Part shown: one piece after another, positions 695 through 37,988 of the stretch
Numbering within the stretch: the stretch's first letter is position 1
Layout: each line of letters opens with the position of its first letter
Notes under the pieces: generated by a model
Databases searched by the model: none
What the model was told of the DNA's origin: nothing
What the model saw: only the letters and a program-made list of their open reading frames with translations
Program-made: the position numbers and the translations under genes
Origin: a virus
Length of the DNA stretch: 38,165 bases
IMG/VR virus record: IMGVR_UViG_3300000230_000014
Coordinates: 1 to 38,165 of that record
Reading direction: 5' to 3' (one strand)

Positions 695-1630
695 TTATCT
701 CCACTCAAAGTTTCGGCCAAAATGACCCCATGTGCATGTGTCTTTGAATTTTACTTTGTTTAGTTTTAAATATTCACGTAAACCTCGAGGGGTAAGATCA
801 TAACCTTCTATTTGTATTTCTTTGCCATCAATTATTGCCACCGCCATAACAGGATCAGCTTTTCCAATTGCATAAGCGAGTTTTGTTTGCACATTTTTAG
901 CATCATATTTTTCTAATAAATCAACTGCAATTCTGCGAGCTATATATGCACCTGACCTATCAACTTTTGTATAATCCTTACCAGAGAAAGATCCGCCACC
1001 AATTGTAACTTCGGGACCGTAATTATCTACAATCAGTTTTCTGCCAGAGAGACCAGTATCAGCATCAAAGCCTCCAAGTGTCCATTCGCCCGCAGGGTTT
1101 ATAAAATATTCATCTGATTCAATTTCTTTTTTGACAAAAGAAAAAAGTTCATCATTTTTTGTATTTTGAAAACTTGCAACTACAGCCACAACCTTTCCAT
1201 TATCGATAGTTACTTGTGTTTTACCATCAAATGGATACTGCTCGTATATTTTCATGCACAAGTTACGAGCCAGTTCATATTCCATTGGAAGCCTACTTTT
1301 TGTCTCTGACGTTGCATAACCTTTCATAATTCCTTGATCACCAGCACCTCCAGTATCTACTCCTCTGGCAATCTCAGGACTTTGGGTGGCAATGTGGGTT
1401 ATAACCTCGAAATTTTGCCCTACAATGGCTTTTACGAGGCTTTCTGTGTCCAATTTGGCACTACTCGTCACCTCGCCGTTTATTGTTATTAAATTGTGTC
1501 CACCCATAACCTCAATTGCTACACGACTCTCGGGATCATTTTCCAAGTAAGCATCAAGGATGCTGTCTGCGATAAAATCGCAAATTTTGTCCGGATGTTT
1601 CGGACTCACAAATTCTGCTGTCTTTTTCAT
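695..1630 (-). CDS. metK: S-adenosylmethionine synthetase, short form
   Basis: Makes S-adenosylmethionine from methionine and ATP. Family motifs are in order: HPDK (residues 12-15), GAGDQG (95-100), TGLSGRK (192-198), GGGSFSGKD (211-219), KVDRS (222-226) and a terminal GHFGR (302-306). At 311 residues it is about 70 shorter than the usual bacterial enzyme (about 380-390). The motifs at both ends are kept, so the shortening lies in internal segments. The normally conserved Gly before HPDK is Lys here. Expression is very probably controlled by the SAM-I riboswitch and terminator directly upstream. Start ATG at 1628-1630. The product would supply the three DNA methyltransferases in this window as well as general metabolism. 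Host or phage origin is unclear. Confidence 0.93.
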   Translation of the reverse strand: MKKTAEFVSPKHPDKICDFIADSILDAYLENDPESRVAIEVMGGHNLITINGEVTSSAKLDTESLVKAIVGQNFEVITHIATQSPEIARGVDTGGAGDQGIMKGYATSETKSRLPMEYELARNLCMKIYEQYPFDGKTQVTIDNGKVVAVVASFQNTKNDELFSFVKKEIESDEYFINPAGEWTLGGFDADTGLSGRKLIVDNYGPEVTIGGGSFSGKDYTKVDRSGAYIARRIAVDLLEKYDAKNVQTKLAYAIGKADPVMAVAIIDGKEIQIEGYDLTPRGLREYLKLNKVKFKDTCTWGHFGRNFEWR

Positions 1631-1635
1631 ATTAT

Positions 1636-1662
1636 AAATAAAAATTCCTCATAAAAGAGGAA
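1636..1662 (-). terminator. Leader terminator hairpin of the metK riboswitch
   Basis: On the minus strand TTCCTC (1662-1657), loop TTTTAT, GAGGAA (1650-1645), then TTTTTATTT running almost into the metK start codon. This is the layout of the expression platform of a transcription-terminating SAM-I riboswitch. GAGGAA could also serve as a distant ribosome-binding site, so translational control is possible as well. A TCCTC at 1674-1670 (minus) could compete for GAGGA as an antiterminator. Confidence 0.7.
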
Positions 1663-1676
1663 AAGATATAGAGGAC

Positions 1677-1783
1677 TAATTCTTATCTTTCCCATCATTG
1701 GGTTGGAGTTAGCACCTTCTTATTTCTAAGGGTTGCCGGTGGGTCATTGAGCCAGTACTCTCGCCACACTCTTGATAACAACT
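1677..1783 (-). ncRNA. SAM-I (S-box) riboswitch
   Basis: On the minus strand the conserved S-box blocks appear in order: TTATCAAGAG (P1 5' side and start of the core), GGCGAGAG, CTGGC, AATGACCC, CCGGCAACC, AAGGTGCTAACTCC, and GATAAG closing P1 at the 3' side. The class binds S-adenosylmethionine and usually shuts off methionine and SAM genes when SAM is plentiful. It sits directly before the metK terminator hairpin and start codon and just after a good promoter, so the aptamer would lie at the very 5' end of the metK transcript. Confidence 0.93.
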
Positions 1784-2646: not shown

Positions 2647-3393
2647 TTATTTTAACATTTTTCGTGATTCAAAGTAAGCACAATAATCACAAGCACGGCC
2701 AGATTCTGGAATATCTCCATCGAGACAATTTTTAATTTCTTGAAGAATTCCACCAACCCATGAATCATCACCAGTGTATGGTAAAAGATCAATATCAAAT
2801 TCAAGTTTTCCATCAAACGCTTCACGATCAGCTTTTCCGTTGCAATAAACAAAGTAACCAGTACTTGACACTTTAAAACCTAGCTTGCGTAATAACCACT
2901 GGTACATTTCCATTTGACGTTTGTATCCGATCTGCCAGTCTGCATCCAAACTTACCTTTGACGGTTTACTAGTTGCCTTGTAATCAACAACAGTAATCTC
3001 CCCTTCCCTATTGACCCACAAGTCGTCTACGGCGCCCGTCATGATGAAATTAGTCGGCTCGTGGTGATATTGTATTCCTTTGAAATTCTCTCTCCATTCA
3101 CCCATTTTTTCGTGTGCAAACGGGACCATGTCCAGACCATAGGCTTTCATAAGTGGGTGTGTGGTTTTCCCCTCTCTATGTATGTCGAATTCTTTTTTTA
3201 AGAGGGCATCTACGGCTGAGTTTAAGGCAAATGGAAAGCCCGGAGGTTGTGCTACCCCAAGCCTACGATCCATATAAAAACATTTCGGGCAATTCATGTA
3301 GTTCTCAATTTTTGATCGAGATAATTTAAAAGGCTCCGTACTTTCCGGATCGTAGATATTGCGTGTTCTGTTGGCATTGTAATATTCTGACAT
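2647..3393 (-). CDS. PD-(D/E)XK nuclease-family protein, Cas4/RecB-like
   Basis: Shows the Cas4/AddB-type layout: LSRSKIENYMNCPKCFY (Cys35 and Cys38), then GAVDDLW and VVDYKAT giving the catalytic D123/D124 and D137-x-K139, then QIGYKRQMEMYQW (the QxxxY-type motif), and a C-terminal pair Cys235/Cys238. Four such cysteines in related proteins hold an Fe-S cluster. The expected activity is single-strand exonuclease or end processing. It follows the SLATT gene by 4 bases and is in the defence operon, so it may act as an additional effector or in repair of cut DNA. Similar proteins are also common as stand-alone genes in CPR genomes, so a defence role is inferred from position only. Confidence 0.75.
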   Translation of the reverse strand: MSEYYNANRTRNIYDPESTEPFKLSRSKIENYMNCPKCFYMDRRLGVAQPPGFPFALNSAVDALLKKEFDIHREGKTTHPLMKAYGLDMVPFAHEKMGEWRENFKGIQYHHEPTNFIMTGAVDDLWVNREGEITVVDYKATSKPSKVSLDADWQIGYKRQMEMYQWLLRKLGFKVSSTGYFVYCNGKADREAFDGKLEFDIDLLPYTGDDSWVGGILQEIKNCLDGDIPESGRACDYCAYFESRKMLK

Positions 3394-3397
3394 AAAA

Positions 3398-3952
3398 TTA
3401 TTCAGTGTGATTTAACCATAGGTCTTTTGGTAAAAATTTATTTATTTCATCATCAGAAAAAGTATATTCCTCATTTTTTTTCAAAGCCACGGAGGCTTTA
3501 TCATATGCTTTACTACTAGTTGGTAAAGCATTTTTATAAATAAGATCTAAATCACACAGCAACTGATCGCGCCTGTTTACGATGTGTTCTTCAGAAATTT
3601 TTTCATTCATAATATCGGCAATAAGACAGGTGTATTTTTCACGAACTTGCCATAGTTGATGTGCTGTCTGTTTGTATTTAAATGCTTTTTCTTCAGGGTT
3701 AAAACTCATTTGGAAAATAGCCAAGGCTAAAGCGAGAAATGTAAAAATAGAACCTAGGATCAGGAGACATTGACTGTTTGATATCATAGAACTAAACAAG
3801 CCAGTTGAACCAAAACTAAGTATCACTAGATTCGCAATTTTCAATCGGCGTGTATAGCTTTCTTGCATCTCGAACTCTTTCTCATAAGTTTTATGAGAGT
3901 AGACCACTCGCCCGAAAGATTCACGGATAATTTGTAAATTTATTTTATTCAT
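3398..3952 (-). CDS. SLATT-domain two-transmembrane effector (CBASS)
   Basis: A 184-residue protein with two adjacent hydrophobic segments (about residues 40-60 and 63-85), a basic amphipathic N-terminus, then a helical cytoplasmic part with KQTAHQLWQVREKYTCL, RRDQLLCDLDLIYKNALP and a C-terminal EEYTFSDDEINKFLP. This matches the SLATT domain, described as a pore-forming effector in nucleotide-signalling conflict systems. Lying 9 bases behind the CD-NTase gene, it is the probable effector: a cyclic nucleotide made by the enzyme would trigger membrane permeabilisation and stop phage spread. The family call is confident; the activation mechanism is inferred. Confidence 0.85.
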   Translation of the reverse strand: MNKINLQIIRESFGRVVYSHKTYEKEFEMQESYTRRLKIANLVILSFGSTGLFSSMISNSQCLLILGSIFTFLALALAIFQMSFNPEEKAFKYKQTAHQLWQVREKYTCLIADIMNEKISEEHIVNRRDQLLCDLDLIYKNALPTSSKAYDKASVALKKNEEYTFSDDEINKFLPKDLWLNHTE

Positions 3953-3961
3953 AAATTAATT

Positions 3962-5269
3962 TTAATAATTGTTTCCTATTGGAACTAATATACGACCCAA
4001 CCCTACGCACTTGTTGTCTTTTATAATGTAGCATTCAACATAATGTTCTCCATAGTAAAGCGTACTTTCTTCTCGAGTCTCATGCCCTAAGTCGTCATGT
4101 ATCTCTCCTCGTAGGGCGTTTGCTCTTTGGGCTTCATCTCCAAAGTTTCTAATTTTCCATTTCATATCATAAGGTTGTGGTACGTTGTGTGTGGCTCTAA
4201 ATAACAGTTTTTTCTTTTTTTGGATCGGAAGTTTTCGTCTTAGGAAATTAATTAGTGTACTATCTCGAAATCCGTCCTGTTTTGTAATATCGGCATCAAG
4301 AGAAACACTGTATGATGGATCTATCTTAAACGGTACCCCATGTTTCTGCTCAAGATATTCCTCTGTTGTTGAAGGATACTGCTCATGTAGTTTGGTTAAT
4401 TTACTGTACTCATCTTCCACTGTATTTTCACTGGTAACTACCTTCACTGTTGTCTTTGGGAAATCGTCGCCAAATATTTTTTTCCATTCGCCTGCAGCTT
4501 CCTCAAATTTACTGTTTGTTTCAAAATCCAGCGCTTTTTGAGCTCGATTTAGAGCGGTACTAATATGACTACACAAACCTTGATCTGAAGTAATAATCAA
4601 GAAATGTTGAAAGAAATTTACAAAAAGTTGTGCTAATCCAATATATTGAGTATTGCTTTGCAGGAAAGATAGTACTGCTCTTTCAATTTGATACGTACGC
4701 AGTTTAGCCGTATTATTGTCTGACCATTTTTTAAGAGATCTTATGAGAAATCTTGTAGTGCCTGTGTTGGTTTCAGATTCTTCGATTTCTTCAATTTCAG
4801 CTCGATAATCTTGATAGTGCCATCTTCCACCATTTTCAGAATCAGGAATAACAAAACTCCCATCTTCTCGTTCCCATGCAGGAACTACTTCTACATCGTG
4901 TTTTGTATCTGCAAATTCTAATTTTACGATTTTTCCAAATGCACTTATCGGAGTATTTGGGTATCTTTCCTCTAAGATTTTTTTTACGTCTTGCAAAACT
5001 TGTGACTGTTTATTTGAAGTATTATCATCATACTGAGCAAACTTTTCCGGTGGCATGATAAAAATAACATCAATATCGCGTGCGGGACGAATCATAGTAC
5101 GTTTACCATAAGAGCCGATTAGGAGTTTTGTGCTACCGGAATATGTCGTGCTTGGGTAGTAATAGTCGTGCAATTTTGAACAGACGCCAGTATATTTTGT
5201 CTTAGCATCCTCCTTTTGGGCGGATGTTAGTTTTATATTTTCATAAAATTTTTCAAACTCTTTTTCCAT
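3962..5269 (-). CDS. CD-NTase (SMODS) with C-terminal AGS-C sensor domain
   Basis: Nucleotidyltransferase of the cGAS/DncV-like family that makes cyclic or linear oligonucleotide second messengers on infection. The active site is intact: GSYGKRT (G52-S53), metal-binding D65 and D67 in ARDIDVIF, and a third acidic residue D125 in HDVEVVPAW. The C-terminal about 90 residues (MKWKIRNFGDEAQ, LRGEI, HYVECYI) fit the AGS-C putative sensor domain found behind SMODS enzymes. Length (435 aa) is normal for this architecture. It starts 5 bases after hsdR and is followed by the SLATT gene, which makes a minimal two-gene CBASS-like unit with no Cap2/Cap3 or HORMA/TRIP13 partners. The nucleotide product cannot be read from the sequence. 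Confidence 0.88.
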   Translation of the reverse strand: MEKEFEKFYENIKLTSAQKEDAKTKYTGVCSKLHDYYYPSTTYSGSTKLLIGSYGKRTMIRPARDIDVIFIMPPEKFAQYDDNTSNKQSQVLQDVKKILEERYPNTPISAFGKIVKLEFADTKHDVEVVPAWEREDGSFVIPDSENGGRWHYQDYRAEIEEIEESETNTGTTRFLIRSLKKWSDNNTAKLRTYQIERAVLSFLQSNTQYIGLAQLFVNFFQHFLIITSDQGLCSHISTALNRAQKALDFETNSKFEEAAGEWKKIFGDDFPKTTVKVVTSENTVEDEYSKLTKLHEQYPSTTEEYLEQKHGVPFKIDPSYSVSLDADITKQDGFRDSTLINFLRRKLPIQKKKKLLFRATHNVPQPYDMKWKIRNFGDEAQRANALRGEIHDDLGHETREESTLYYGEHYVECYIIKDNKCVGLGRILVPIGNNY

Positions 5270-5274
5270 ATATT

Positions 5275-8200
5275 TTATTTTTGCTCTGGGAAGTTGCCGC
5301 CAGAGATATCGAAGAATCTCTCGAAGAAATTCGTAAGTTTATCAATTACACTTTCACGTTTCTTAGTGCGCTCTCCTGTTGGCGAGAAACGAGACACTGG
5401 TGGCAAAACCTTTGAGATTGCAGTGCCAGCCGCCGGTACCCTGCCATCACGGAATGAGCTCTTTACAAATTGATACGTTGCATCACGATCCAGTTTTTCA
5501 GTAGCAATAATTTCTTCAAGTTCTTCGATCTTCTTCTGATCAACGAATTTACGCCAATCTTCATCAACTACAGAGTGCATATCGAGTGATGTAATAAACT
5601 GATTGATGAGATCCTTTTTATTACGCAACTCGACGCTTGAATCAATCGCCTTATTGATATCGAGCAGAATTTCTCGGTTTTGAGTGTGATCCTCGTGGTA
5701 TTGCTTGATTAGTGCTAGGACATAGTCGATATTTATTTCAATCTGCTTGATCAATTCCATTTCAAACACTACGTCATCGTTAACATTCTCTTTCTCTTCC
5801 TCTACGCTCTTGCGGAATTCATTGTAGAGGTCGATATACATACTGTGGTAATCCTGTACATCACGCTCAGTCAAAATTCCATTGCCAGCAAATTCATCGA
5901 ACGTAGTGAGAATGTTGCGGACACGCAGAACCGCACCATAAAGTTTGATGAATTCTTTTTGATTTGTTTCGCCTATGATGCGCTCACCAATAGGAAACTT
6001 TTCTAAAAGCTCTTTTACTAAACTCGCATAGCCGCGCACTTCCTTCTTATCGTCCTTGTAGCCGTTATAGTATTCATCGTAAGACTTCAACAGCACAATG
6101 CCTCCGGCTTCCTTATCTCCAAAGAGTGCAATGGATTCGTTCGTGGCCTTTTCCAAGTTGCGGAAACAGATGATGTTTCCGAAAGTCTTTACGCTGTTCA
6201 GGATACGATTCGTGCGCGAGAACGCTTGCAACAATCCGTGTAAGCGGAGATTTTTGTCTACCCACAGTGTATTGAGTGTAGTTGCATCAAAGCCGGTCAG
6301 AAACATATTGACCACGATAAGTAAGTCGATTTCTCGATCTTTTACTCTCTGACTGACGTCCTTATAATAGTTTTGGAATTTGTCTGAAGACGTATCGTAT
6401 GAGGTTCCAAACATTCCGTTGTAATCAACGATAGCTTTTTCAAGAAAATCTCGCGAGCTTACATCGAGACCGCTTGTATCTTCTAAATTCTCATCAATCA
6501 TTCCGTCAGCGTCCTCATCATTTACCCCGAAACTGAAAATTGTTGCGACTTTTAATCTCTTATCGCTCGGAGCATCCGCAAGTTGCTTTTTAAATTCTGC
6601 ATAGTATTTTTTAGCGGCATCAATAGACGAAACTGCAAAAATTGAATTGAATCCCGACAGTCGTCGGTCTTTCACCTTGTAGTAACTATTACGTTTGGTC
6701 TTTTGATCAAAATGCTCCCGAATATAAGCCACGATTTTTGTCATGCGCTCCGGTGCCATTAAGATCGCCTCACGATCAATGTCGCTCACCTTTTTGTCTT
6801 CGATGTCCTCTGATTCACGGACAGTAGAAACATAATCAACTTTAAACGGCAACACGTTTTTGTCAGCGATCGCATCAACTATGGTATAGGTGTGTAGCTT
6901 ATCGCCAAAGGCTTGCTCTGTAGTTCGTAGATCCGGTCGGCCACCTGATGATGAATTCATTGCAAAAATCGGCGTGCCAGTAAAACCGAAGATATTGTAA
7001 TTCTTGAAAGTTTTCGTTATGGCGGCATGCATATCGCCAAATTGTGAGCGGTGGCATTCGTCAAAAATAATCACAACATGACCGTCAAAGATTTCATGAC
7101 CGTCGTTGCGACCAATAAAGCGGTCTAGTTTTTGAATGGTCGTGATAATGATACGAGCATTCGAGCTTTCAAGCTGTTTTTTGAGAAGCGATGTGCTGGT
7201 ATTGCTGTTGGCCGATCCTTTTTCAAACTTGTCATACTCGCGCATCGTTTGATAGTCCAAGTCCTTGCGATCAACGACAAACAACACTTTATTGACGTAT
7301 GGTAGTTTAGTTGCGAGCTGTGCAGTCTTGAAACTTGTCAGAGTTTTTCCTGATCCTGTTGTATGCCAAATATAACCACCGGCTTCCGGTGTACCGAGCT
7401 TTTTGTAGTTAGTGCTTATCTCGATGCGGCTCAAGATTCTTTCGGTCGCTACTATCTGATATGGTCGCATTACAAGTAAAAGGCGATCTGTAGTAAAGAC
7501 GCAATACTTCGTCAAGATATTCAAAACTGTATGCTTTGCAAAAAATGTTTTTCCGAAGTCCATAAGATCGGCAATCGGGCGATTTGTCGCATCTGCCCAC
7601 CAACTTGTGAATTCAAAACTGTTACTTGATCGCTTGCCTTTCTTTACAGCACCCTCATTTGCTTCTTTGATGTGCTGTGATCTTGTTGTATTGCTGTAGT
7701 ATTTTGTATGTGTTCCGTTTGAAATTACGAACAACTGGACGTATTCAAAGAGACCCGACGCAGCCCAGAAACTTTCTCGTTGATAACGATTAATTTGGTT
7801 GAAGGCCTCTTGGATAGCGACACCACGACGCTTGAGCTCGATATGAATGAGCGGCAATCCGTTTACGAGCACTGTTACATCGTATCGGTTGGCACGCTGT
7901 CCGTCTTCGGTGGCGTACTGATTGGTAACCTGTAAACTATTATTATGAATGTTCTTTTTATCTAAAAGAACTATGTTCCTTTTAAACTTTCCATCATCGC
8001 CATACAAGTTTTTTATTTCATCTTCTTGAATTGTCGCAGTTTTTTCTTCGATACTTTGGTTGGGATTTGCGATCTCACCTGTAAAGAAGCGATCCCATTC
8101 CGTATCACTGAAGGTATAGTCGTTTAGTTTTTCTATCTGTTTTTTCAGATTAAGAACCAGATCATTTTCTGACGTGATCGCAAGATACTCATATGCCTGA

Positions 8201-8343
8201 GTTTCCAGCTGCTTAATAAAAGCATTCTCAAGTTCTGCCTCGCTTTGATAGTTAGCGACTCTTTTGCTATCAGTAATATACTCAGCGACAACTGTGCTTT
8301 GTGTGCTTTCCGCAACTAAATTGTATTTGTTATTAGTTGACAT
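5275..8343 (-). CDS. hsdR: Type I restriction endonuclease subunit R
   Basis: Motor and nuclease subunit of a type I restriction-modification complex. The N-terminal nuclease domain shows D155 and E169-x-K171 in the string HIELKRR. The SF2 helicase core shows Walker A TTGSGKT (328-334), DECH (428-431) and TGTPIF further on, and the C-terminal third is helical, as expected for HsdM contact. At 1022 residues it is full length and appears intact. The ATG overlaps the hsdS stop by 11 bases, so the two are translationally coupled. The complex cuts DNA lacking methylation at the site read by HsdS. Confidence 0.95.
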   Translation of the reverse strand: MSTNNKYNLVAESTQSTVVAEYITDSKRVANYQSEAELENAFIKQLETQAYEYLAITSENDLVLNLKKQIEKLNDYTFSDTEWDRFFTGEIANPNQSIEEKTATIQEDEIKNLYGDDGKFKRNIVLLDKKNIHNNSLQVTNQYATEDGQRANRYDVTVLVNGLPLIHIELKRRGVAIQEAFNQINRYQRESFWAASGLFEYVQLFVISNGTHTKYYSNTTRSQHIKEANEGAVKKGKRSSNSFEFTSWWADATNRPIADLMDFGKTFFAKHTVLNILTKYCVFTTDRLLLVMRPYQIVATERILSRIEISTNYKKLGTPEAGGYIWHTTGSGKTLTSFKTAQLATKLPYVNKVLFVVDRKDLDYQTMREYDKFEKGSANSNTSTSLLKKQLESSNARIIITTIQKLDRFIGRNDGHEIFDGHVVIIFDECHRSQFGDMHAAITKTFKNYNIFGFTGTPIFAMNSSSGGRPDLRTTEQAFGDKLHTYTIVDAIADKNVLPFKVDYVSTVRESEDIEDKKVSDIDREAILMAPERMTKIVAYIREHFDQKTKRNSYYKVKDRRLSGFNSIFAVSSIDAAKKYYAEFKKQLADAPSDKRLKVATIFSFGVNDEDADGMIDENLEDTSGLDVSSRDFLEKAIVDYNGMFGTSYDTSSDKFQNYYKDVSQRVKDREIDLLIVVNMFLTGFDATTLNTLWVDKNLRLHGLLQAFSRTNRILNSVKTFGNIICFRNLEKATNESIALFGDKEAGGIVLLKSYDEYYNGYKDDKKEVRGYASLVKELLEKFPIGERIIGETNQKEFIKLYGAVLRVRNILTTFDEFAGNGILTERDVQDYHSMYIDLYNEFRKSVEEEKENVNDDVVFEMELIKQIEINIDYVLALIKQYHEDHTQNREILLDINKAIDSSVELRNKKDLINQFITSLDMHSVVDEDWRKFVDQKKIEELEEIIATEKLDRDATYQFVKSSFRDGRVPAAGTAISKVLPPVSRFSPTGERTKKRESVIDKLTNFFERFFDISGGNFPEQK

Positions 8344-9556
8344 ATTCGTTAAAGGTTAAAAGTTTGCCCCGATAGTATTCATATTGCGATCTACGTGCCT
8401 TAAGTTCGGCAGGTAAACCGATGGAAATGTCGTTTACAAGTGCATCAAATTTATTTAAAATTGTAGCGATACGTTTTTGTTCAGAAATTTCTGGTACAGG
8501 AATTTTAATTTCTAAGATGTCATCTTTTCGCAGATTTGTTTGGTCGGTGCCATTATCGTATCTGAGTAATTGTCTATTTCTATTCAAAATGTAAAAAAGA
8601 TATTTTGCGTCTAATTCTTGCTTGTTTTTTATTGTTAAAGCACAAATTCGCTGGTTTAATGTGTACTTATCATTTTCATCAACATAAAAACATTTTGCTA
8701 AAGCCTTGCCGTTTGGTAAATCACTCATCACCATTAAAATATCATCTTTGAAAATGGGAGAAATTTGTTTTTCTGAATACTTTCTAACTTCACCTCCCGT
8801 TGAAACAAACTTTGAATTAACAACAATATATTTGCCGTTTTCAACAATATGTTTTTCGTGTCCTTTTCCATTCATAAAGTTAATAATTTGACTAAGCAGA
8901 ACCTGCCGGACCCCCCCCTCTGGGAAAGTTAGAAGCCGTGAACGGTAATGTTCGTACTGCTTCTTCCTCGCTTCTAGCTCCGCTTCTAGCTCCGCTTCTA
9001 GCTCCGCAAAACTATTAAGAGTTTTGACGACTTCCTCTTGTATTGCAATTGGAGGTACAGGTATTTTCATCTCAAGTACCTTTTTCATACTTGGGTGTTT
9101 TATACCAGCCCCACGATAAAAACTCTCAATAAGATCATTTTTTGAAAGCATCCAGTAGTATAAGAATTTATTTGATAAAATATTTGTATCGAGGGATGTT
9201 GCAATGCGGTTGTCAGCGGTAACAAATTTACCCTTGTAATATTTGACGTTTGCTTGACCACCCCAAGGTATCGCAACTATTTCACCATCACATAAATACT
9301 TTCCGGCAAACTCCTCATCAGTCCAACCAATATAATTACCCGTCGAAAGTATCCGAACCGTGCCGTTTGGACGTACAAGTTCTTTAAATCGATTAGCAGG
9401 AAAATAAGGGTAAGTAAGAACTTTTTTCTGCTTTTCGCGATCAATTCCATTGAACTTTTTATCCCAAGCTGTTAATTCCCACAACTCTTTGTACGCAATA
9501 CCATTTGGGCACAGTTCAGATATTAGTTTTTCAATTTTATTAATGTGTTTAGTCAT
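8333..9556 (-). CDS. hsdS: Type I restriction specificity subunit S
   Basis: Reads the target sequence for HsdM and HsdR. Two target-recognition domains are each followed by a conserved helix: first IPVPPIAIQEEVVKTL, then AELEAELEAELEARKKQYEH; second IPVPEISEQKRIATIL, then PAELKARRSQYEYYR. I place the start at the ATG at 9554-9556 (MTKHINKIEKL), one base after the hsdM stop; a longer frame to 9610 would overlap hsdM by 53 bases. Two unstable DNA elements lie between the halves: three perfect 12-bp repeats coding ELEA, and a run of eight G on the coding strand at about codon 213. Either could change specificity. The gene is intact as sequenced. Confidence 0.93.
   Translation of the reverse strand: MTKHINKIEKLISELCPNGIAYKELWELTAWDKKFNGIDREKQKKVLTYPYFPANRFKELVRPNGTVRILSTGNYIGWTDEEFAGKYLCDGEIVAIPWGGQANVKYYKGKFVTADNRIATSLDTNILSNKFLYYWMLSKNDLIESFYRGAGIKHPSMKKVLEMKIPVPPIAIQEEVVKTLNSFAELEAELEAELEARKKQYEHYRSRLLTFPEGGVRQVLLSQIINFMNGKGHEKHIVENGKYIVVNSKFVSTGGEVRKYSEKQISPIFKDDILMVMSDLPNGKALAKCFYVDENDKYTLNQRICALTIKNKQELDAKYLFYILNRNRQLLRYDNGTDQTNLRKDDILEIKIPVPEISEQKRIATILNKFDALVNDISIGLPAELKARRSQYEYYRGKLLTFNEYVN
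8911..8918 (-). repeat. G8 homopolymer tract in the middle of hsdS
   Basis: Eight C on the plus strand, so eight G in the coding strand, reading GAG GGG GGG GTC (E-G-G-V). One extra G would lead to TAG about nine codons later, and one fewer G to TGA about 14 codons later. Either change leaves a protein with only the first recognition domain and the central conserved helix. It is a striking G run in an A/T-rich gene. Confidence 0.9.
8969..9004 (-). repeat. Three perfect 12-bp tandem repeats in the central helix of hsdS
   Basis: Unit CGCTTCTAGCTC (plus strand) at 8969-8980, 8981-8992 and 8993-9004, followed by CGC of a partial fourth. The repeat encodes the four-residue unit ELEA three times in the spacer helix between the two recognition domains. 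In the EcoR124 family, two versus three copies of the equivalent TAEL unit set the distance between the half-sites. Confidence 0.92.
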
Positions 9557-9557
9557 A

Positions 9558-11138
9558 CTAATTTCCTTCGATATCACTGATAATCTGATCAATTGCAACA
9601 CGAAGCTCATTTTGTTTTGTCACAATTTTCGCAATTCTTGAATTGAGTTCAGTAATATCCACTACATCACGGTTATCTTGTTGAACAACATAATTTGAAA
9701 CTTGTAGATTGTAGTCATTTTCGGCAATTACTTTGTTGTCAGCTAGTTTTGCAAAGTGATCAACATCCTTACGTGCAATATATGAGCTTAAAATATTAGC
9801 GCGATTTGTTTCAGTAAGTTTATTTTTAGTGCCTCCACGGACAAATTCAGCCGAGGCGTCTATAAATAAAGTCTTATTGTCTTTCTTGCTCTTTTTTAAA
9901 ACTATAATGCAGGTTGCAATGGTTGGACCAAAAAATAAATCTGGAGGCAGTTGTATTACAGCGTCAATGTAATTGTTTTCTATAAGATATTTACGAATCT
10001 TTTGCTCAGCTCCTCCACGAAAGAGTACGCCCGGATACTCAACAATCGCCGCTGTACCACTTGTTGAAAGCCATGAAAGCATGTGCATAGTAAATGCTAG
10101 ATCAGCTTTGCTCTTTGGCGCTAGTACTCCAGCAGGTGAAAAACGAGGGTCATTTATGAGGAGTGGATTAGAATCACCTTCCCAGTTAATTGAATATGGA
10201 GGATTGGAAACAATCGCATCGAAAGGTTCATCATCCCAATGTTTAGGGTCTGTAAGTGTGTCTCCGTGTGCTATATCAAAATGGTTGTAATTGATATCAT
10301 GCAAAAACATGTTTATACGACAAAGGTTATATGTTGTGATATTGATTTCCTGACCATAGAAACCTTGTCGGACATTTTCTTTACCAAGTACTTTGGCAAA
10401 TTTTAAAAGAAGCGAGCCCGAGCCACAGCATGGGTCGTATACTTTATTAACTTCCTTTTTCCCAACCGTAGTAATTTCAGCAAGGAGCTCACTCACCTCT
10501 TGAGGTGTAAAGAACTCACCTCCAGATTTTCCAGCATTTGAGGCATACATAGTCATTAAAAACTCGTATGCATCACCGAATGCATCGATAGTGTTGTCTC
10601 CATAATCACCAAGGCGAAGATCACCTATAGCTTCAAGAAGTTTTACAAGTTGTTGATTTCTTTTTTCAACAGTTGCACCAAGTTTATTTGAGTTAACATC
10701 AAGGTCATCAAAAAGTCCCTTTAGGTCATCTTCACTATCAGATCCTTTAGCGGAATTTTCTATATTGGTAAAAACATTTGCGAGTGTCTCATTAAGATTC
10801 GCATCATTATGAGCATTTTTGCGAACATTCACAAAAAGCCCACTAGGCAGGATATAAAAACCTTTTTCCTTGATTGTATCTGCTCGGCCAAACTCTGCTT
10901 CCTTGTCTGATAAATTTACGTAATCAAAATCTTTTTTTCCAGAACGTCGCTCGTCAGCATTAATGTAATTTGTTAAATTTTCACTAATAAAACGATAAAA
11001 CAGGATTCCCAACACGTACTGTTTGAAATCCCAACCGTCAACACTTCCGCGCATATCATTCGCAATTTGCCAAATAGCACGATGAAGTTCGGTGCGCTCT
11101 TGTTCTTTTGTTCTGTTTATATTTGAATCTTTAGACAT
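9558..11138 (-). CDS. hsdM: Type I DNA methyltransferase subunit M
   Basis: N6-adenine methyltransferase subunit of the type I system. It has an N-terminal helical HsdM domain (about residues 15-150) and then an N6-methylase domain with SAM motif DPCCGSG (235-241) and catalytic NPPY (312-315). The C-terminal helix (about residues 495-526) is the usual HsdS/HsdM contact. At 526 residues it is complete. It begins 4 bases after the fic stop, and hsdS begins one base after its own stop. It needs SAM, which the nearby metK makes. Confidence 0.95.
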   Translation of the reverse strand: MSKDSNINRTKEQERTELHRAIWQIANDMRGSVDGWDFKQYVLGILFYRFISENLTNYINADERRSGKKDFDYVNLSDKEAEFGRADTIKEKGFYILPSGLFVNVRKNAHNDANLNETLANVFTNIENSAKGSDSEDDLKGLFDDLDVNSNKLGATVEKRNQQLVKLLEAIGDLRLGDYGDNTIDAFGDAYEFLMTMYASNAGKSGGEFFTPQEVSELLAEITTVGKKEVNKVYDPCCGSGSLLLKFAKVLGKENVRQGFYGQEINITTYNLCRINMFLHDINYNHFDIAHGDTLTDPKHWDDEPFDAIVSNPPYSINWEGDSNPLLINDPRFSPAGVLAPKSKADLAFTMHMLSWLSTSGTAAIVEYPGVLFRGGAEQKIRKYLIENNYIDAVIQLPPDLFFGPTIATCIIVLKKSKKDNKTLFIDASAEFVRGGTKNKLTETNRANILSSYIARKDVDHFAKLADNKVIAENDYNLQVSNYVVQQDNRDVVDITELNSRIAKIVTKQNELRVAIDQIISDIEGN

Positions 11139-11142
11139 AAAT

Positions 11143-12207
11143 TTATATTTTTACATACCTCGTTCCCGGACCCCGACCAGTCCTTTTTACTTTCTCTAGT
11201 GATAAAAGCCTCATAAGTGCCTGACGAACGGTTGCAATATTAATTCCTGTAGCATTTGCAATTTCTGTTGGACTTGCATCACCGATACCTGAGATATATT
11301 TCCATACCTCATATTGTTTTGGTGAAAGTTGATCTTCAACATGTTCTTCTTCAAGATAACTGAGAGCCTTTGTCGCCTGTTCTTTTAATACTGAGAAGAA
11401 GAAATTGAGCCACGGCGCGATTGTAACATGATCGGTTTTGAATGTTTCCTGTGATTTGCGAAGTGCTAGATAGTACTCATCCTTTCGACGTTCTACAATT
11501 TGCTCATGAGAGACATACTGTATAAATTGATAACCTGATCTTAAGAGTAGAAGATTTGTAAGTACACGCGAAAGACGCCCATTTCCATCTTCAAACGGGT
11601 GAATTTTTAGGAATTCAACAATAAAATTTCCAATCACAAGGAGTGGATGGAATCTATTTTCTTCTATGGCTGTTTGTGTCCATTCAACAAGTTCTGTCAT
11701 TTCAGCCGGTGTTTGCCAAGCAGCAGTTGGATTAAACATAATTTTTGCTATTTGACCATCGGGACCAAGTACACCTACTGTATTTTCCCCTTTTTTGTAT
11801 TTACCTCTGTGAAGTTTATCTTTATCTGAATACTTCATGAGCTCGTTATGGAGTGATTGAATCATTCCTTCACGAAGTGGTAATGTCTGAAAGCTATCAA
11901 AAACATTTTGTAATGTTTCTAGATAACCCTGTACTTCTTGAGAATCGCGATCGGCAAACTTTGAAACTGCAAGTCCTTGCATAACTTTCTCAACTTCTTC
12001 ATCGGTAAGTTTACCTCCTTCTATACGAGTTGATGCCGCCGCAGAGGTAACAAGCACAGAGCGCTTGAGGCTTGTGATTGCTTGTGGGGTCATTCGCAGA
12101 CCAGATTTAAATTCGCCACGGATGCCATCTATCTCAGCAATAAGCTGAAGAATATGTGGTGCTGGCGCTTGTAATCTGTAATCAAATTTTGCTTTATTTT
12201 CTTCCAT
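11143..12207 (-). CDS. fic: Fic-family AMPylase with C-terminal winged helix
   Basis: Transfers a nucleotide, usually AMP, to a target protein. The Fic core motif HPFEDGNGRLSR lies at residues 203-214 with catalytic His203. An N-terminal inhibitory helix carries S59-T-R-I-E63-G64, the [S/T]xxxE[G/N] signature of self-inhibited class II Fic proteins. The last about 65 residues (SPKQYEVWKYISG to the end) form a winged helix-turn-helix, so the protein probably binds DNA. As first gene of the restriction/CBASS operon, preceded by a promoter wrapped in repeated boxes, it is a likely autorepressor and switch of the operon. The AMPylation target is unknown. Confidence 0.9.
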   Translation of the reverse strand: MEENKAKFDYRLQAPAPHILQLIAEIDGIRGEFKSGLRMTPQAITSLKRSVLVTSAAASTRIEGGKLTDEEVEKVMQGLAVSKFADRDSQEVQGYLETLQNVFDSFQTLPLREGMIQSLHNELMKYSDKDKLHRGKYKKGENTVGVLGPDGQIAKIMFNPTAAWQTPAEMTELVEWTQTAIEENRFHPLLVIGNFIVEFLKIHPFEDGNGRLSRVLTNLLLLRSGYQFIQYVSHEQIVERRKDEYYLALRKSQETFKTDHVTIAPWLNFFFSVLKEQATKALSYLEEEHVEDQLSPKQYEVWKYISGIGDASPTEIANATGINIATVRQALMRLLSLEKVKRTGRGPGTRYVKI

Positions 12208-29720: not shown

Positions 29721-30818
29721 TTATTTTTCAAGGAATAATCTGCGTATGATTTCTCGCACAACGTTGACCGTTACAGCATTTCCAAGGCACTTATAACGTG
29801 CAGTGTCGCTTATTCCTGCCGTCCAACCATCAGGAAATCCTTGAAGTCTTTCGCACTCTACTGGTGTTAGTCTGCGAATTTTTATGCCGTCAAATACGCC
29901 ATGTTTATCTTGTGCGGTCAGAGTGAAGCACGGTTCGTTATTCCCCTTTACTCGCCTACCATTTTGCCTTTTGTTAATACGATCGGGAGTCAGCACGGGA
30001 ATCGCGTACAGCCCTGTTTTAGCCCCAACACCGCCCGCCTGACTGGCTAATGTTGTCGATAATCCTTTGGGATCATAGACACGATAACCTTGGGACCCGC
30101 CTGCTAACTGAACTAAATCCCACGCATGTTTTTTTGTTAGGCTTCCACGTCCGCCAGTTCTGATTGTATTTGAGAGATTAGTTTCCTTGTTAGTTTCGGT
30201 GACAGGAAATATTTTTGCTCTGCGTTTTTCTCTAAGATGTCCGACAATGAACACTCTTTCTCGGTTTTGTGGTACCCCGAAGTTTTTACTGTTAAGCACC
30301 TGCCATTCAACGTCATACCCCAACTCATAAAGGGTTGAAAGGATGACAGCAAATGTTTTTCCTTTGTTGTGAGATAGAAGCCCTTTGACGTTCTCAAGAA
30401 GTAGAAAGCGTGGCCTCCTTTGTTTAATGATCCGAGCAATTTCAAAGAAGAGCGTACCTCGTGTATCTTTGAATCCGAGACGCTTTCCGGCGATCGAAAA
30501 TGATTGGCAAGGAAAGCCTCCGACAAGGAGATCAAAGTCTGGTAATGTTTTTGGTTTGATTTTTCTAATGTCGCCATAATTTTTTTGTTCAGGAAAATGT
30601 TTTTGATAAATGTTAATTGCTGATTTTTCAATTTCGGAATACCCAACACAAGAGGCACTTGTCCTCCGCCCATTCCCATTGCGGATGTTAGACATGGGCA
30701 TACGTCTTGCATGATTGCCGCATTTTTTTGCTGACTTCCGATTGCTATTGTTTTCATATGCCTGTTGTATTCCGAGTTCGAATCCACCAATACCTGTGAA
30801 GAGACTAAAGTATTTCAT
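29721..30818 (-). CDS. DNA (cytosine-5) methyltransferase
   Basis: Uses SAM to make 5-methylcytosine. Motif I FSLFTGIGGFELG (residues 4-16), motif IV GGFPCQSFS with catalytic Cys104, motif VI ENV (142-144), motif VIII QNRER (184-188) and motif X LGNAVTVNVV near the end are all present. The recognition region lies at about residues 200-310. Residues 23-56, between motifs I and II, are a basic insert (RKSAKKCGNHARRM) not seen in typical members. It probably protects phage DNA from host restriction. It overlaps the ParB-methyltransferase gene by 14 bases. Confidence 0.92.
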   Translation of the reverse strand: MKYFSLFTGIGGFELGIQQAYENNSNRKSAKKCGNHARRMPMSNIRNGNGRRTSASCVGYSEIEKSAINIYQKHFPEQKNYGDIRKIKPKTLPDFDLLVGGFPCQSFSIAGKRLGFKDTRGTLFFEIARIIKQRRPRFLLLENVKGLLSHNKGKTFAVILSTLYELGYDVEWQVLNSKNFGVPQNRERVFIVGHLREKRRAKIFPVTETNKETNLSNTIRTGGRGSLTKKHAWDLVQLAGGSQGYRVYDPKGLSTTLASQAGGVGAKTGLYAIPVLTPDRINKRQNGRRVKGNNEPCFTLTAQDKHGVFDGIKIRRLTPVECERLQGFPDGWTAGISDTARYKCLGNAVTVNVVREIIRRLFLEK

Positions 30819-32082
30819 GGTTTGCTCGATTCATTCGTTTCCATCTGTCACGAATCACGTCACAAAATTTAGGATCGAGTTCAATCATAAATGCACGCCG
30901 TCCGACTTTTTCGGCTGCAGTCATTGTGCTACCAGATCCTGCAAATGGATCAAGCACAATGTCATTTCTTTTAGTTGAATTTCTTAATGCTCGCATACAG
31001 AGCCAGTCAGGTTTTTCTGTTGGATGTAAATAGCGAGCTGTTGCTTTACGTGGCATTTCCCATACGTCATATTCGCCATCGCCATAAAAGACATGCGTGC
31101 CGACCTTCCATCCGTAGATAATGCTTTCAGCAGTTTTTGGATCAGGTTTTTTTGCTTTGGCAATCCATTCATGTTTGTAGCGATAGTCATTCCATCCCAT
31201 GCTTGGAATATTCTTTACCCAGATAATCACTCCCGAATGTCTGAATCCATTCATAAGCATGCTCTGCAAAAATTGCGGATATGAACTCCAACCAGAGCAA
31301 ATATATAGGGACCCTCCTTCCTTGATATGAGTAATCATTCCGGCAAATGCACCATCAATAAATGTTTTAAATTCTTCAGGAGTCATGTTGTCATTTTTAA
31401 TTTTCTCGAGTTCCTCATTTTTGAGTTTTTCCCCGCGTGAGTGATAGTCCACATTGTATGGAGGATCAGTGAATATCATGTCGGCTTTTTCTTTTCCTAG
31501 AAGTGCTTTGTATACTTCAGGATCAGTTGAGTCACCACAAATGAGGCGGTGTTGACCTAGTTCGTATATTTCACCAACTTTCGAGCGTGGCTCTTTTGTA
31601 TCATCAATCAGTTCTTCTTCGTCGTCGTTATCATCGAGTGTCTGATCAAGAATGCGACTTATTTCATCCTCTCTAAATCCTGAGGCAGGAATATGTGGAT
31701 CTTCTTTTAATGCAATAATAATTTCTGCTAGTTTTATTTCATCCCATTTTCCTTTTATTTTATTGAGTGCGAGGTTGAGAAGTTTTTCATCTTCGGCCGA
31801 TAAATCAACAAATGATACTGGGACCAAGTAGATACCTTTTTCTTTTGATTCTTCTATACCTTTTGGAATTACTCCACTTGCGATTATCGATTCAAGAGCG
31901 CTCAAGCGTTGATGTCCTCCAATAAGCACGCCATATCTATCTTTGTTACTATTTACTACAATTGGTTCGACAAAGCCGAATGTTTTTATACTTGTTTTTA
32001 ATGCTTCCATTTCAGAATCAGGCATGATTCTAGGATTATAGTCGGCACGTTTCAGCTCGTTTATTTTAATCGTTGATTGCAT
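30805..32082 (-). CDS. ParB-domain DNA methyltransferase (beta class, adenine-N6 or cytosine-N4)
   Basis: A ParB/Srx-like domain (IKINELKRADYNPRIM, then VLIGGHQRLSALESI) is fused to a methyltransferase of the beta class: TDPPYNV before the target domain and LDPFAGSGSTMTAAEK after it, ending near ELDPKFCDVIRDRWKR. This order, catalytic motif first and SAM motif second, is the hallmark of the class. I start at the ATG at 32080-32082 (MQSTIKINELKRAD), overlapping the previous gene by 17 bases. Such fusions are common in phages and may modify viral DNA. Confidence 0.9.
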   Translation of the reverse strand: MQSTIKINELKRADYNPRIMPDSEMEALKTSIKTFGFVEPIVVNSNKDRYGVLIGGHQRLSALESIIASGVIPKGIEESKEKGIYLVPVSFVDLSAEDEKLLNLALNKIKGKWDEIKLAEIIIALKEDPHIPASGFREDEISRILDQTLDDNDDEEELIDDTKEPRSKVGEIYELGQHRLICGDSTDPEVYKALLGKEKADMIFTDPPYNVDYHSRGEKLKNEELEKIKNDNMTPEEFKTFIDGAFAGMITHIKEGGSLYICSGWSSYPQFLQSMLMNGFRHSGVIIWVKNIPSMGWNDYRYKHEWIAKAKKPDPKTAESIIYGWKVGTHVFYGDGEYDVWEMPRKATARYLHPTEKPDWLCMRALRNSTKRNDIVLDPFAGSGSTMTAAEKVGRRAFMIELDPKFCDVIRDRWKRMNRANHEIL

Positions 32083-32452
32083 AATGTAAGTCGTCATAGA
32101 CGAAGTTTTGAGCAAATTCGACCCTTTGTTTCAGTCCCTTTATTTTTTCTTTATCTTTTTTTATGCTTTCATTTATCAGACTGATTGTCTCATCACAGCT
32201 GACAATAAATTCTTCAGCTTTGGCTATCTTTGAATTTAATTCCTTACTTTTTAGACGAGTGACCTTTGTAGTGTCCTTAGGATCAATAGTTGCTAGTTCT
32301 ACTTTAAGCTCATCAAGCTCTTTGAATTTTTCATCCTGAAGTTTTTTAACTGAAGGTATTTTTGATTCATCAAATTCAATGTTTACAGCTTTTCTCCATA
32401 TCTGCTCGTTAAGTTCATTGATGAATCTTTCTTGGTATTGTTTTGTGTCCAT
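32066..32452 (-). CDS. Coiled-coil hypothetical protein, 128 aa
   Basis: Almost entirely helical. A charged region with heptad spacing covers about residues 35-115 (KKLQDEKFKELDELKVELAT, KSKELNSKIAKAEEFIVS, INESIKKDKEKIKGLKQRVE). No membrane segment. It lies one base from rusA and overlaps the ParB-methyltransferase gene, so it is part of the DNA-metabolism operon. The function is unknown. Confidence 0.65.
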   Translation of the reverse strand: MDTKQYQERFINELNEQIWRKAVNIEFDESKIPSVKKLQDEKFKELDELKVELATIDPKDTTKVTRLKSKELNSKIAKAEEFIVSCDETISLINESIKKDKEKIKGLKQRVEFAQNFVYDDLHYAIND

Positions 32453-36213: not shown

Positions 36214-36279
36214 TGCGACATTTTCATTTCCGTCACGCGCTTTTGCGACTTGACAGAACCAAAGGCTTATTGTGCGACA
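36214..36279. repeat. Three TGCGAC boxes spaced about 30 bp
   Basis: TGCGACA at 36214-36220, TGCGACT at 36244-36250 and TGCGACA at 36273-36279: same orientation, 30 and 29 bp apart, so on the same face of the helix (about three turns each). Function unknown; possible protein-binding sites. Confidence 0.4.
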
Positions 36280-36342
36280 CTATACTACCTTTTAAATACA
36301 GCTATAAATAGCAATCAACCTCCCCCAATTAGTAAATTTTGA

Positions 36343-37245
36343 TTATTCTGTAGTTATCTCAAGCACACAAGAATTATATAATTTGATTTGTTCGTTATAA
36401 ATATTTATTTTTTCTTTCATTTCATTAATTAAATTATTATAAATATTTACTAAATTATTATAAATGTCGATTTGTTCATTTTGAGTCTTCCCTTCATATA
36501 TCACTCCTTTTTCGATCATTTCTCGACGAAGGATTAAATCATTCTCTTTTGCCCTCAATTCACTTTGTTTAATATCAATTACTCCATTTAGTAATTCATC
36601 TGCCGATAAGCAAGCACTACTTGGTACCCCAAAATGCTGAACCGACATCCAAATATCCCTGCCTTCAAATTTAGCTTTCTTCACAGCAACACCGATCTCA
36701 GTATAACGATTGTTTAGAATATTTGCTCGGTGACCTGGACTTGCCATCCATGCATCAACAAGGGCTAAATCATCTTTGAAGTTACCCATAGCTAAATTCT
36801 CTCCGACTAATATATATTCATAACCCGCATCTTTCACTAAATCACCTACACCAAGACCATTTGGTGAGGCGTGTTCAAAATATTGATTGTTAAACATGTC
36901 ATCTAATTTCTTTTCGGCAGATAAATTTAATTTTTGATTTTCTGTTAATTTTGAAAGTTTGTTTTCTTCTCTATATTTATTACTAAAATTAATAATTTCA
37001 TCTTTTGATAAAATAACGTAATCTTTAATATTTATGAGATTTTCTACAACACGCAAGGCTCCTGGGGTATCCTCATTATTCAGCAATTTAGTTTTTTCTC
37101 TTTGAATTAAATTAATTATTGGATCTCCGCCCTTTTTATTGATTACTGACAAAACTTTCTGAGCAGAAGAAAAAATATCGTCTTTCGCAATATAAAAAGA
37201 TAACAACAAAAATATTAGTATAAAAATTTGATAATATTTTCTCAT
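36343..37245 (-). CDS. Membrane-anchored CAP (SCP/PR-1) domain protein
   Basis: I use the ATG at 37243-37245 (MRKYYQIFILIFLLLSFYIA), where a clear signal anchor begins; a longer frame would overlap the upstream gene. Residues about 75-215 form a CAP domain: YFEHASPNG, LVGENLAMG, WMASPGHRANILN and EIGVAVKK. The C-terminal about 85 residues are a coiled coil with IYNNLV/IYNNLI repeats. CAP proteins of this kind are common in CPR genomes and probably act outside the cell; the enzymatic role is unknown. The gene is followed by a terminator, and its start is 5 bases after the previous stop. Confidence 0.85.
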   Translation of the reverse strand: MRKYYQIFILIFLLLSFYIAKDDIFSSAQKVLSVINKKGGDPIINLIQREKTKLLNNEDTPGALRVVENLINIKDYVILSKDEIINFSNKYREENKLSKLTENQKLNLSAEKKLDDMFNNQYFEHASPNGLGVGDLVKDAGYEYILVGENLAMGNFKDDLALVDAWMASPGHRANILNNRYTEIGVAVKKAKFEGRDIWMSVQHFGVPSSACLSADELLNGVIDIKQSELRAKENDLILRREMIEKGVIYEGKTQNEQIDIYNNLVNIYNNLINEMKEKINIYNEQIKLYNSCVLEITTE

Positions 37246-37249
37246 AAAT

Positions 37250-37642
37250 TTATTTGCACGTTGATGATAATTGATAGCCTGATTTCTCAGCTTCTTCGCT
37301 TGTACTAAACCAAACTTCATTTTCAGGTTTAATGCGTTTAGCTCCACTACAGCCTAAACTATAATACATTTTACCATTTTTTGAGGCGACATACTTCTTC
37401 TCTCTTTGCCCTTCCGATTGGATTGAAATTTCAGCTAGGTCATTTTTGGAGTTTTCAAGTAAGGACTGATTATTCCTTAATTGACTTATATTATCAGCTC
37501 CGACAACCCTATTATTGACCGATAATCGTCCTAAACCAAAAGAACTAATCCCCACCCCTACTATTATACAAATATACAATATTGTAGTATTGTCAATACC
37601 AAATTTGGACTTGATTTTATCGAATATATTATGTATACTCAT
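37250..37642 (-). CDS. Membrane-anchored Ada-type metal-binding domain protein
   Basis: I use the ATG at 37640-37642 (MSIHNIFDKIKSK); a TTG three codons earlier is possible. A membrane helix lies at about residues 22-40 (ILYICIIVGVGISSFGLG). The C-terminal about 45 residues (KYVASKNGKMYYSLGCSGAK, FSTSEEAEKSGYQLSSTCK) match the small Cys-containing domain related to the Ada zinc site, frequent in CPR membrane proteins. It is co-transcribed with the CAP gene. Confidence 0.7.
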   Translation of the reverse strand: MSIHNIFDKIKSKFGIDNTTILYICIIVGVGISSFGLGRLSVNNRVVGADNISQLRNNQSLLENSKNDLAEISIQSEGQREKKYVASKNGKMYYSLGCSGAKRIKPENEVWFSTSEEAEKSGYQLSSTCK

Positions 37643-37687
37643 ATAGTTCAATTATAAATTATTTTAATTCAGTTTACTAGAACCTAA

Positions 37688-37708
37688 AAACTAGAAACTA
37701 GAAACTAA
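37688..37708 (+). repeat. Three 7-bp tandem repeats directly before rpmA
   Basis: AAACTAG, AAACTAG, AAACTAA at 37688-37708, ending 4 bases before the rpmA start codon. It replaces any Shine-Dalgarno sequence. The role is unknown. Confidence 0.6.
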
Positions 37709-37712
37709 CTTT

Positions 37713-37985
37713 ATGGCACATAGGAAAGCCGGGGGTTCGGCCAAAAACTTAACAGATTCAAATCCAAAGTATTTAGGTACTAAACTTTATGCTGGCGAAA
37801 AAGCAAAATCTGGATCAATAATAATTCGTCAACGTGGAACTAAAATTCTTCCAGGAACAAATGTTGGACTTGGTAAAGATCATACTCTTTTCGCTCTAAA
37901 AGAAGGTACTGTCAAATACGGAACAAAGAGAAAAATAAATTTCAATCGCACTTCTTCCGTCAAGAAAATCGTACACGTTATATAA
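37713..37985 (+). CDS. rpmA: 50S ribosomal protein L27
   Basis: The bL27 signature is at the N-terminus ([20 protein letters not shown]), followed by [37 protein letters not shown] and a basic tail. L27 reaches into the peptidyl transferase centre. The SNPKYLG segment in place of the common SNGRDSxxKRLG is usual in Parcubacteria-like CPR genomes and supports the host assignment. At 90 residues it is full length. No rplU (L21) precedes it; the neighbour on the left is divergent. Confidence 0.96.
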
Positions 37986-37988
37986 ATA

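Follow-up and report, generated by a model that had tools for sequence, protein, structure and literature searches.

Type I operon and neighbouring genes

The window (the whole stretch of DNA analysed, 38,165 nucleotides; IMG/VR record IMGVR_UViG_3300000230_000014) carries on its minus strand three neighbouring genes of a Type I restriction–modification (RM) system: hsdM (9558–11138; 526 aa, DNA methyltransferase subunit; EcoR124II M, E 3e-182), hsdS (8333–9556; 407 aa, specificity subunit; Pfam Methylase_S, 2e-37; EcoR124II S, 1e-34) and hsdR (5275–8343; 1022 aa, restriction subunit; Pfam EcoR124_C, 2e-68, and HSDR_N); the operon holds a single hsdS gene. HsdM was matched at 87% in a Falkowbacteria MAG, and HsdR at 84.5% in a bacterial MAG (L004). 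By the homology of HsdM and HsdS to the EcoR124 subunits, the EcoR124_C domain of HsdR and the adjacency of the genes, the system is assigned to Type IC.

A Fic-family gene (11143–12207, minus strand; Pfam Fic; PADLOC SoFic) lies directly upstream of hsdM; a 77% homologue is likewise found upstream of hsdM in locus L247. Directly 3' of hsdR, on the same strand, are a CBASS-type nucleotidyltransferase gene (3962–5269; SMODS and AGS_C by Pfam; PADLOC Cyclase, 2e-104) and a gene for a two-TM effector (3398–3952; Pfam SLATT_4, 6e-50; PADLOC 2TM effector); together they form a CBASS module (3398–5269) in which a CD-NTase with an AGS_C sensor is combined with a SLATT_4 effector. With a Cas4-like nuclease (2647–3393), three defence layers (Fic-RM, CBASS, nuclease) stand in one block.

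Prophage and host

The body of a prophage occupies 12456–35091 (minus strand; PHROGs, Pfam, relatives) and comprises a lysin-like PG-binding protein, tail, capsid, portal, terminase, methyltransferases (C5 and N6/N4), replication proteins and Sak4; at 29721–32115 a phage-encoded C5 cytosine methyltransferase adjoins a ParB–N6/N4 methyltransferase fusion. It is followed by a patescibacterial chromosome flank (36268–37986) with a CAP-domain gene, a small ORF and rpmA (L27, 94% to that of Patescibacteria genome G204), syntenic with G204 and G348 at about 75% DNA identity. A free virus was rejected as the source of the record, since its right end is CPR chromosome; judged from its gene content, the window is prophage plus CPR host DNA. 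Full-length relatives of the portal protein (47–56%) were found in 4 of 380 Patescibacteria genomes; in 296 Bacteroidota the matches were partial, of 30% at best. In G204 and G192 relatives of the phage are integrated beside an integrase and housekeeping genes; in the window no match to the integrase of one relative (L267) was found, nor was an integrase present among the Pfam-scanned proteins. The CPR host proposed in the preliminary description is thus upheld by the flanking rpmA/L27 and by the related prophages in Patescibacteria. At 695–1781 (minus strand) a short form of metK (311 aa) follows a SAM-I riboswitch (RF00162, 71 bits); its best match (65%) comes from a Patescibacteria genome, and it may be either host DNA or cargo of the prophage.

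In a virus contig related to the prophage (G027; L201:8236–15869) the site behind the lysin is taken by a Fic gene (9085–10149; 86% identical to that of the window), a Type III RM system (mod/res) and a SIR2-type gene. Since Type III RM and SIR2 stand there in place of Type I RM and CBASS, the Fic-RM block behaves as exchangeable cargo; on this gene order the post-lysin site of the window and of G027 is a defence-cassette exchange site. HsdM was sought in 17 relatives of the window phage, whose records may be fragments, and none was found; the type of RM is therefore not fixed in the lineage.

The G8 tract and its reading frames

The plus strand reads C8 at 8911–8918, i.e., G8 on the coding (minus) strand of hsdS; this homopolymer is the candidate phase-variable tract. 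It spans nt 639–646 of the CDS (last base of GAG, GGG GGG, first base of GTC) and thus codons 213–216 (E-G-G-V). Frames were computed for G6 to G10; product length by tract: G8, 407 aa; G9, 221 aa, ending in TAG; G7, 227 aa, ending in TGA. TGA terminates 3 of the 32 genes in the window; the TGA of the G7 frame is therefore a real stop, and an alternative code (TGA = Gly) was rejected on the same ground. The preliminary description had placed eight G in the middle of hsdS, after the first recognition domain (TRD1) and the central helix, with a stop about nine codons on for G9 and about 14 codons on for G7; its position and its frame arithmetic both proved correct.

The protein is laid out as TRD1, D1 helix (residues 170–208), tract loop (209–216), TRD2 and D2 helix (357–399). 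AlphaFold2 (mean pLDDT 80, with lower confidence in some of TRD2) places residues 213–216 in the loop after the D1 helix and the start of TRD2 at the strand 217–220; S subunits were returned by Foldseek as matches of the model (1ydx, 1yf2, 7bst_A), and the tract aligns to the SFKEGEVEW junction of EcoR124II S. As shown on the model, the predicted G7 and G9 products keep one complete TRD and the D1 dimerisation helix and end just past D1.

Within the coiled-coil helix of D1 a 12-bp tandem repeat is found (8969–9007, minus strand; 3.2 copies, TRF score 78, 100% match) that codes (AELE)n. Judged by its sequence and place, it is the counterpart of the TAEL repeat, which sets the spacer length in EcoR124I/II (PMC3874165), and of the LEAT repeats with which the poly-G of NgoAV is combined (PMC6789123). 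This repeat is a second potential specificity variable, absent from the preliminary description.

The tract is the sole G/C run of eight or more in the record (runners-up: two C6 runs). By composition, 0.14 runs of this length are expected per 38-kb window (P about 0.13), so that the run alone proves nothing, and significance from composition alone was rejected. A G8 near the lower length limit for hypermutable tracts might simply be a chance spelling of a Gly-Gly-Val linker that shows no measurable variation, and one such run per 38 kb is too likely by chance to speak against a static linker of this kind. The codon usage does speak against it: GGG is a minor Gly codon in the window (9.5% of Gly codons), and GGGGGG occurs once among its 55 Gly-Gly pairs, at the hsdS tract. 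By this rare spelling, and by the family-wide repeat hot spot at the same junction described below, the tract is raised above chance.

Repeats at the same junction in related hsdS genes

Relatives of the window HsdM were collected from 80 bacterial or archaeal loci, 79 virus loci and 15 Patescibacteria regions, and the adjoining hsdS genes (114 distinct genes) were examined behind the conserved central helix (YxYYRxxLL). A simple repeat was present at this junction in 26 of the 114 (about one in four); repeat types: G7 to G13, (GA)n, (GACA)n and (GCAA)n. Against 18 of 7382 equal-size coding-strand windows of the same loci this is a 94-fold excess; with strict thresholds 22 of 114 genes stood against 7 of 7382 background windows (204-fold), figures in which the genes counted are not fully independent of one another. 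The C-terminal copy of this helix motif served as a matched control, and a repeat followed it in 1 of 102 cases (Fisher p = 4e-7 vs the central junction); the lone case, L154 with the 7-mer repeat (ACGAACA)6, may itself be an internal junction.

On the HsdM tree, which is only a proxy for the history of hsdS because hsdS exchanges recognition domains, the presence of the repeat needs at least 12 gains or losses on well-supported branches and involves four repeat chemistries. CPR members with junction repeats include L006 (G8), L248 (G8), L247 (GA), L249 (GA) and L243 (ACAG). The hsdS of L006, a MAG labelled Gracilibacteria, shares TRD2 with the window gene and differs in TRD1; both have G8 at the junction despite diverged neighbouring codons. 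Among other phyla and virus contigs, tetranucleotide repeats (GACA in L013, L075 and L243; GCAA in L103, L104 and L141) and the heptanucleotide repeat of L154 were noted at this position of hsdS.

Tract length and frame vary across the family. In 24 of the repeat-bearing hsdS genes the frame could be followed as far as a stop codon; 18 of these encode the full-length product, and the other 6 (L013, L038, L043, L049, L076, L104) are truncated, with the stop 19 to 42 codons past the start of the helix motif. The second half is intact in another frame in L038, L043, L049 and L076; in L013 and L104 the central and C-terminal helix motifs do not share a reading frame. The hsdS family therefore occurs in nature in both forms. 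In one virus contig (L084:8146–8157) a G9 tract stands at the junction and the contig ends 3 nt past it; this would fit an assembly that broke off at a site of variable length, but is suggestive only.

Variation within a single lineage was also sought. No near-identical flanks with another tract length were found in IMG/VR; the E. coli-type alleles, taken as a population test, had G7 at the same junction in 7 of 7 copies. In the prophages of Mycoplasma anatis (named phages with Type I systems) both copies are identical and lack a central repeat, and no simple repeat was found in the Type III mod/res genes of relatives. The invariance of the E. coli-type G7 is the main support of a static linker, to which the likewise G8 tract of the closest relative may be added. 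Such a linker is nevertheless judged unlikely: it would leave unaccounted for the 94- to 204-fold enrichment at one junction, the GA, GACA and GCAA repeats, which do not code Gly, and the six relatives that are out of frame.

The same tract and frame evidence would also fit a plain ON/OFF switch, in which a slipped tract yields an unstable or inactive truncated S and cells with G7 or G9 lose both modification and restriction. NgoAV-like loci are often without an active form (43 of 92 strains; PMC9577141), and PMC10030836 discusses an attempt to express such an N-terminal half from a staphylococcal Type I S. An OFF switch, however, would fit anywhere in the 5' part of hsdS, whereas in all repeat-bearing members the tract lies directly past D1, in a position that preserves TRD1 and the dimerisation helix; half-S proteins of Type IC are, moreover, functional (PMC3874165). 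Simple loss of function is therefore regarded as an improbable purpose of the tract, to about the same degree as a static linker.

A further arrangement is suggested by the G7 frame, the TGA of which overlaps an ATG of the TRD2 frame (ATGA); in L038 an ATG also stands right behind the stop. A second half might thus be re-initiated in the G7 allele, and the two separate halves might assemble, as co-expressed halves of EcoDXXI complement each other (PMC3874165). A start at this ATG would, however, leave out residues 217–224, which in the AlphaFold2 model make up the opening strand and helix of TRD2; the G9 frame is without an ATGA-type overlap, and no active protein came from hsdS2 of NgoAV (PMC9577141). 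Assembly from two such halves is considered very improbable.

Comparison with known systems

In NgoAV of Neisseria gonorrhoeae (Type IC) the poly-G yields a half-S of 208 aa out of 410 with the target GCAN8TGC; on loss of one G the halves are fused and the target becomes GCAN7STCA; among 92 strains the tract ranges from 6 to 9 G, with two specificities (PMC9577141). The parallel with NgoAV drawn in the preliminary description was borne out in family (Type IC), in tract position (behind TRD1 and the central helix), in the adjacent 4-residue repeat and in the truncated size, about half of the subunit in both (221/227 aa in the window). The two systems differ in that tract-length variation and two specificities have been demonstrated for NgoAV, whereas the window copy is known from one sequence with the full-length frame; the window gene, unlike that of NgoAV, is linked to Fic and CBASS and adjoins a prophage in the chromosome of a CPR bacterium.

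Half-S homodimers with palindromic targets are known from EcoR124I and EcoDXXI and have been reported, among the Type I families, only for Type IC (PMC3874165). The window system resembles EcoR124I/II and EcoDXXI in its HsdM and HsdS, which are homologous to theirs (E 3e-182 and 1e-34, respectively), and in its 12-bp spacer repeat; their half-S proteins, in contrast, arose from laboratory truncation or Tn5 insertion, and no G8 tract is involved (PMC3874165). In SpnIII and SsuCC20p the specificity of a Type I system is switched within a clone, as is proposed for the window hsdS, but by DNA inversion between duplicate hsdS genes (PMC7394358), whereas the window operon has a single one. According to the survey of Atack et al. 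2020, as it is cited in PMC7394358, simple sequence repeats (SSRs) occur in about 7.9% of the Type I hsdS genes of REBASE; the window gene resembles these, at the level of detail given there, in carrying a simple repeat predicted to be phase-variable. SSR-driven Type I switches have been demonstrated for NTHi hsdM and NgoAV hsdS only, and slippage switching of a Type I S between two working targets only in the gonococcus (PMC7394358).

Proposed mechanism

Since the window hsdS has the architecture of NgoAV, a contingency switch between an asymmetric and a symmetric target is its most likely role, and we regard the G8 as probably a slippage locus of this kind. With G8, the state read in the window, the full 407-aa S with two recognition domains would direct the enzyme to an asymmetric bipartite target. 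Gain or loss of one G would cut S just past the D1 coiled-coil helix (221 or 227 aa); the half-S chains, by the precedent of EcoR124I(delta50), EcoDXXI and NgoAV, would homodimerise on two HsdM, and methylation and restriction would be sent to a palindrome of the TRD1 half-site. The 12-bp (AELE)n repeat may add another variable, slower to change, by setting the length of the spacer. The predicted outcome is a lysogenic CPR population whose cells differ in which incoming DNA is restricted.

Significance

A switch of this kind is known as such, from NgoAV and from the earlier survey of SSRs in hsdS in so far as PMC7394358 reports it; what appears to be new is the CPR, prophage-linked member and the extent of the junction hot spot. 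No description of phase variation in CPR bacteria was found in the open-access literature; the statement of the preliminary description that no such switch was known from CPR bacteria is in this respect uncontradicted, but the window is not the only case, as G8, (GA)n and (ACAG)n stand at the junction in other CPR genomes. The spread of several repeat units over the family suggests, at the level of sequence, that Type IC systems in general are built for slippage switching. A wider reading, in our judgement as likely to be true as false, is that Type IC hsdS genes of many phyla, CPR included, repeatedly gained differing slippery repeats at the one loop in which a change of frame still yields a functional half-S; the switch of NgoAV would be a single instance of a widespread, convergent alternation between an asymmetric and a palindromic target, found here on, or next to, a CPR prophage that exchanges RM cassettes. 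CRISPR-Cas is rarely encoded in CPR bacteria, according to the statements on this point in PMC6509639. If the proposed switch is real, a self-diversifying RM system in a prophage-side defence island would bear on the survival of ultra-small cells under phage attack.
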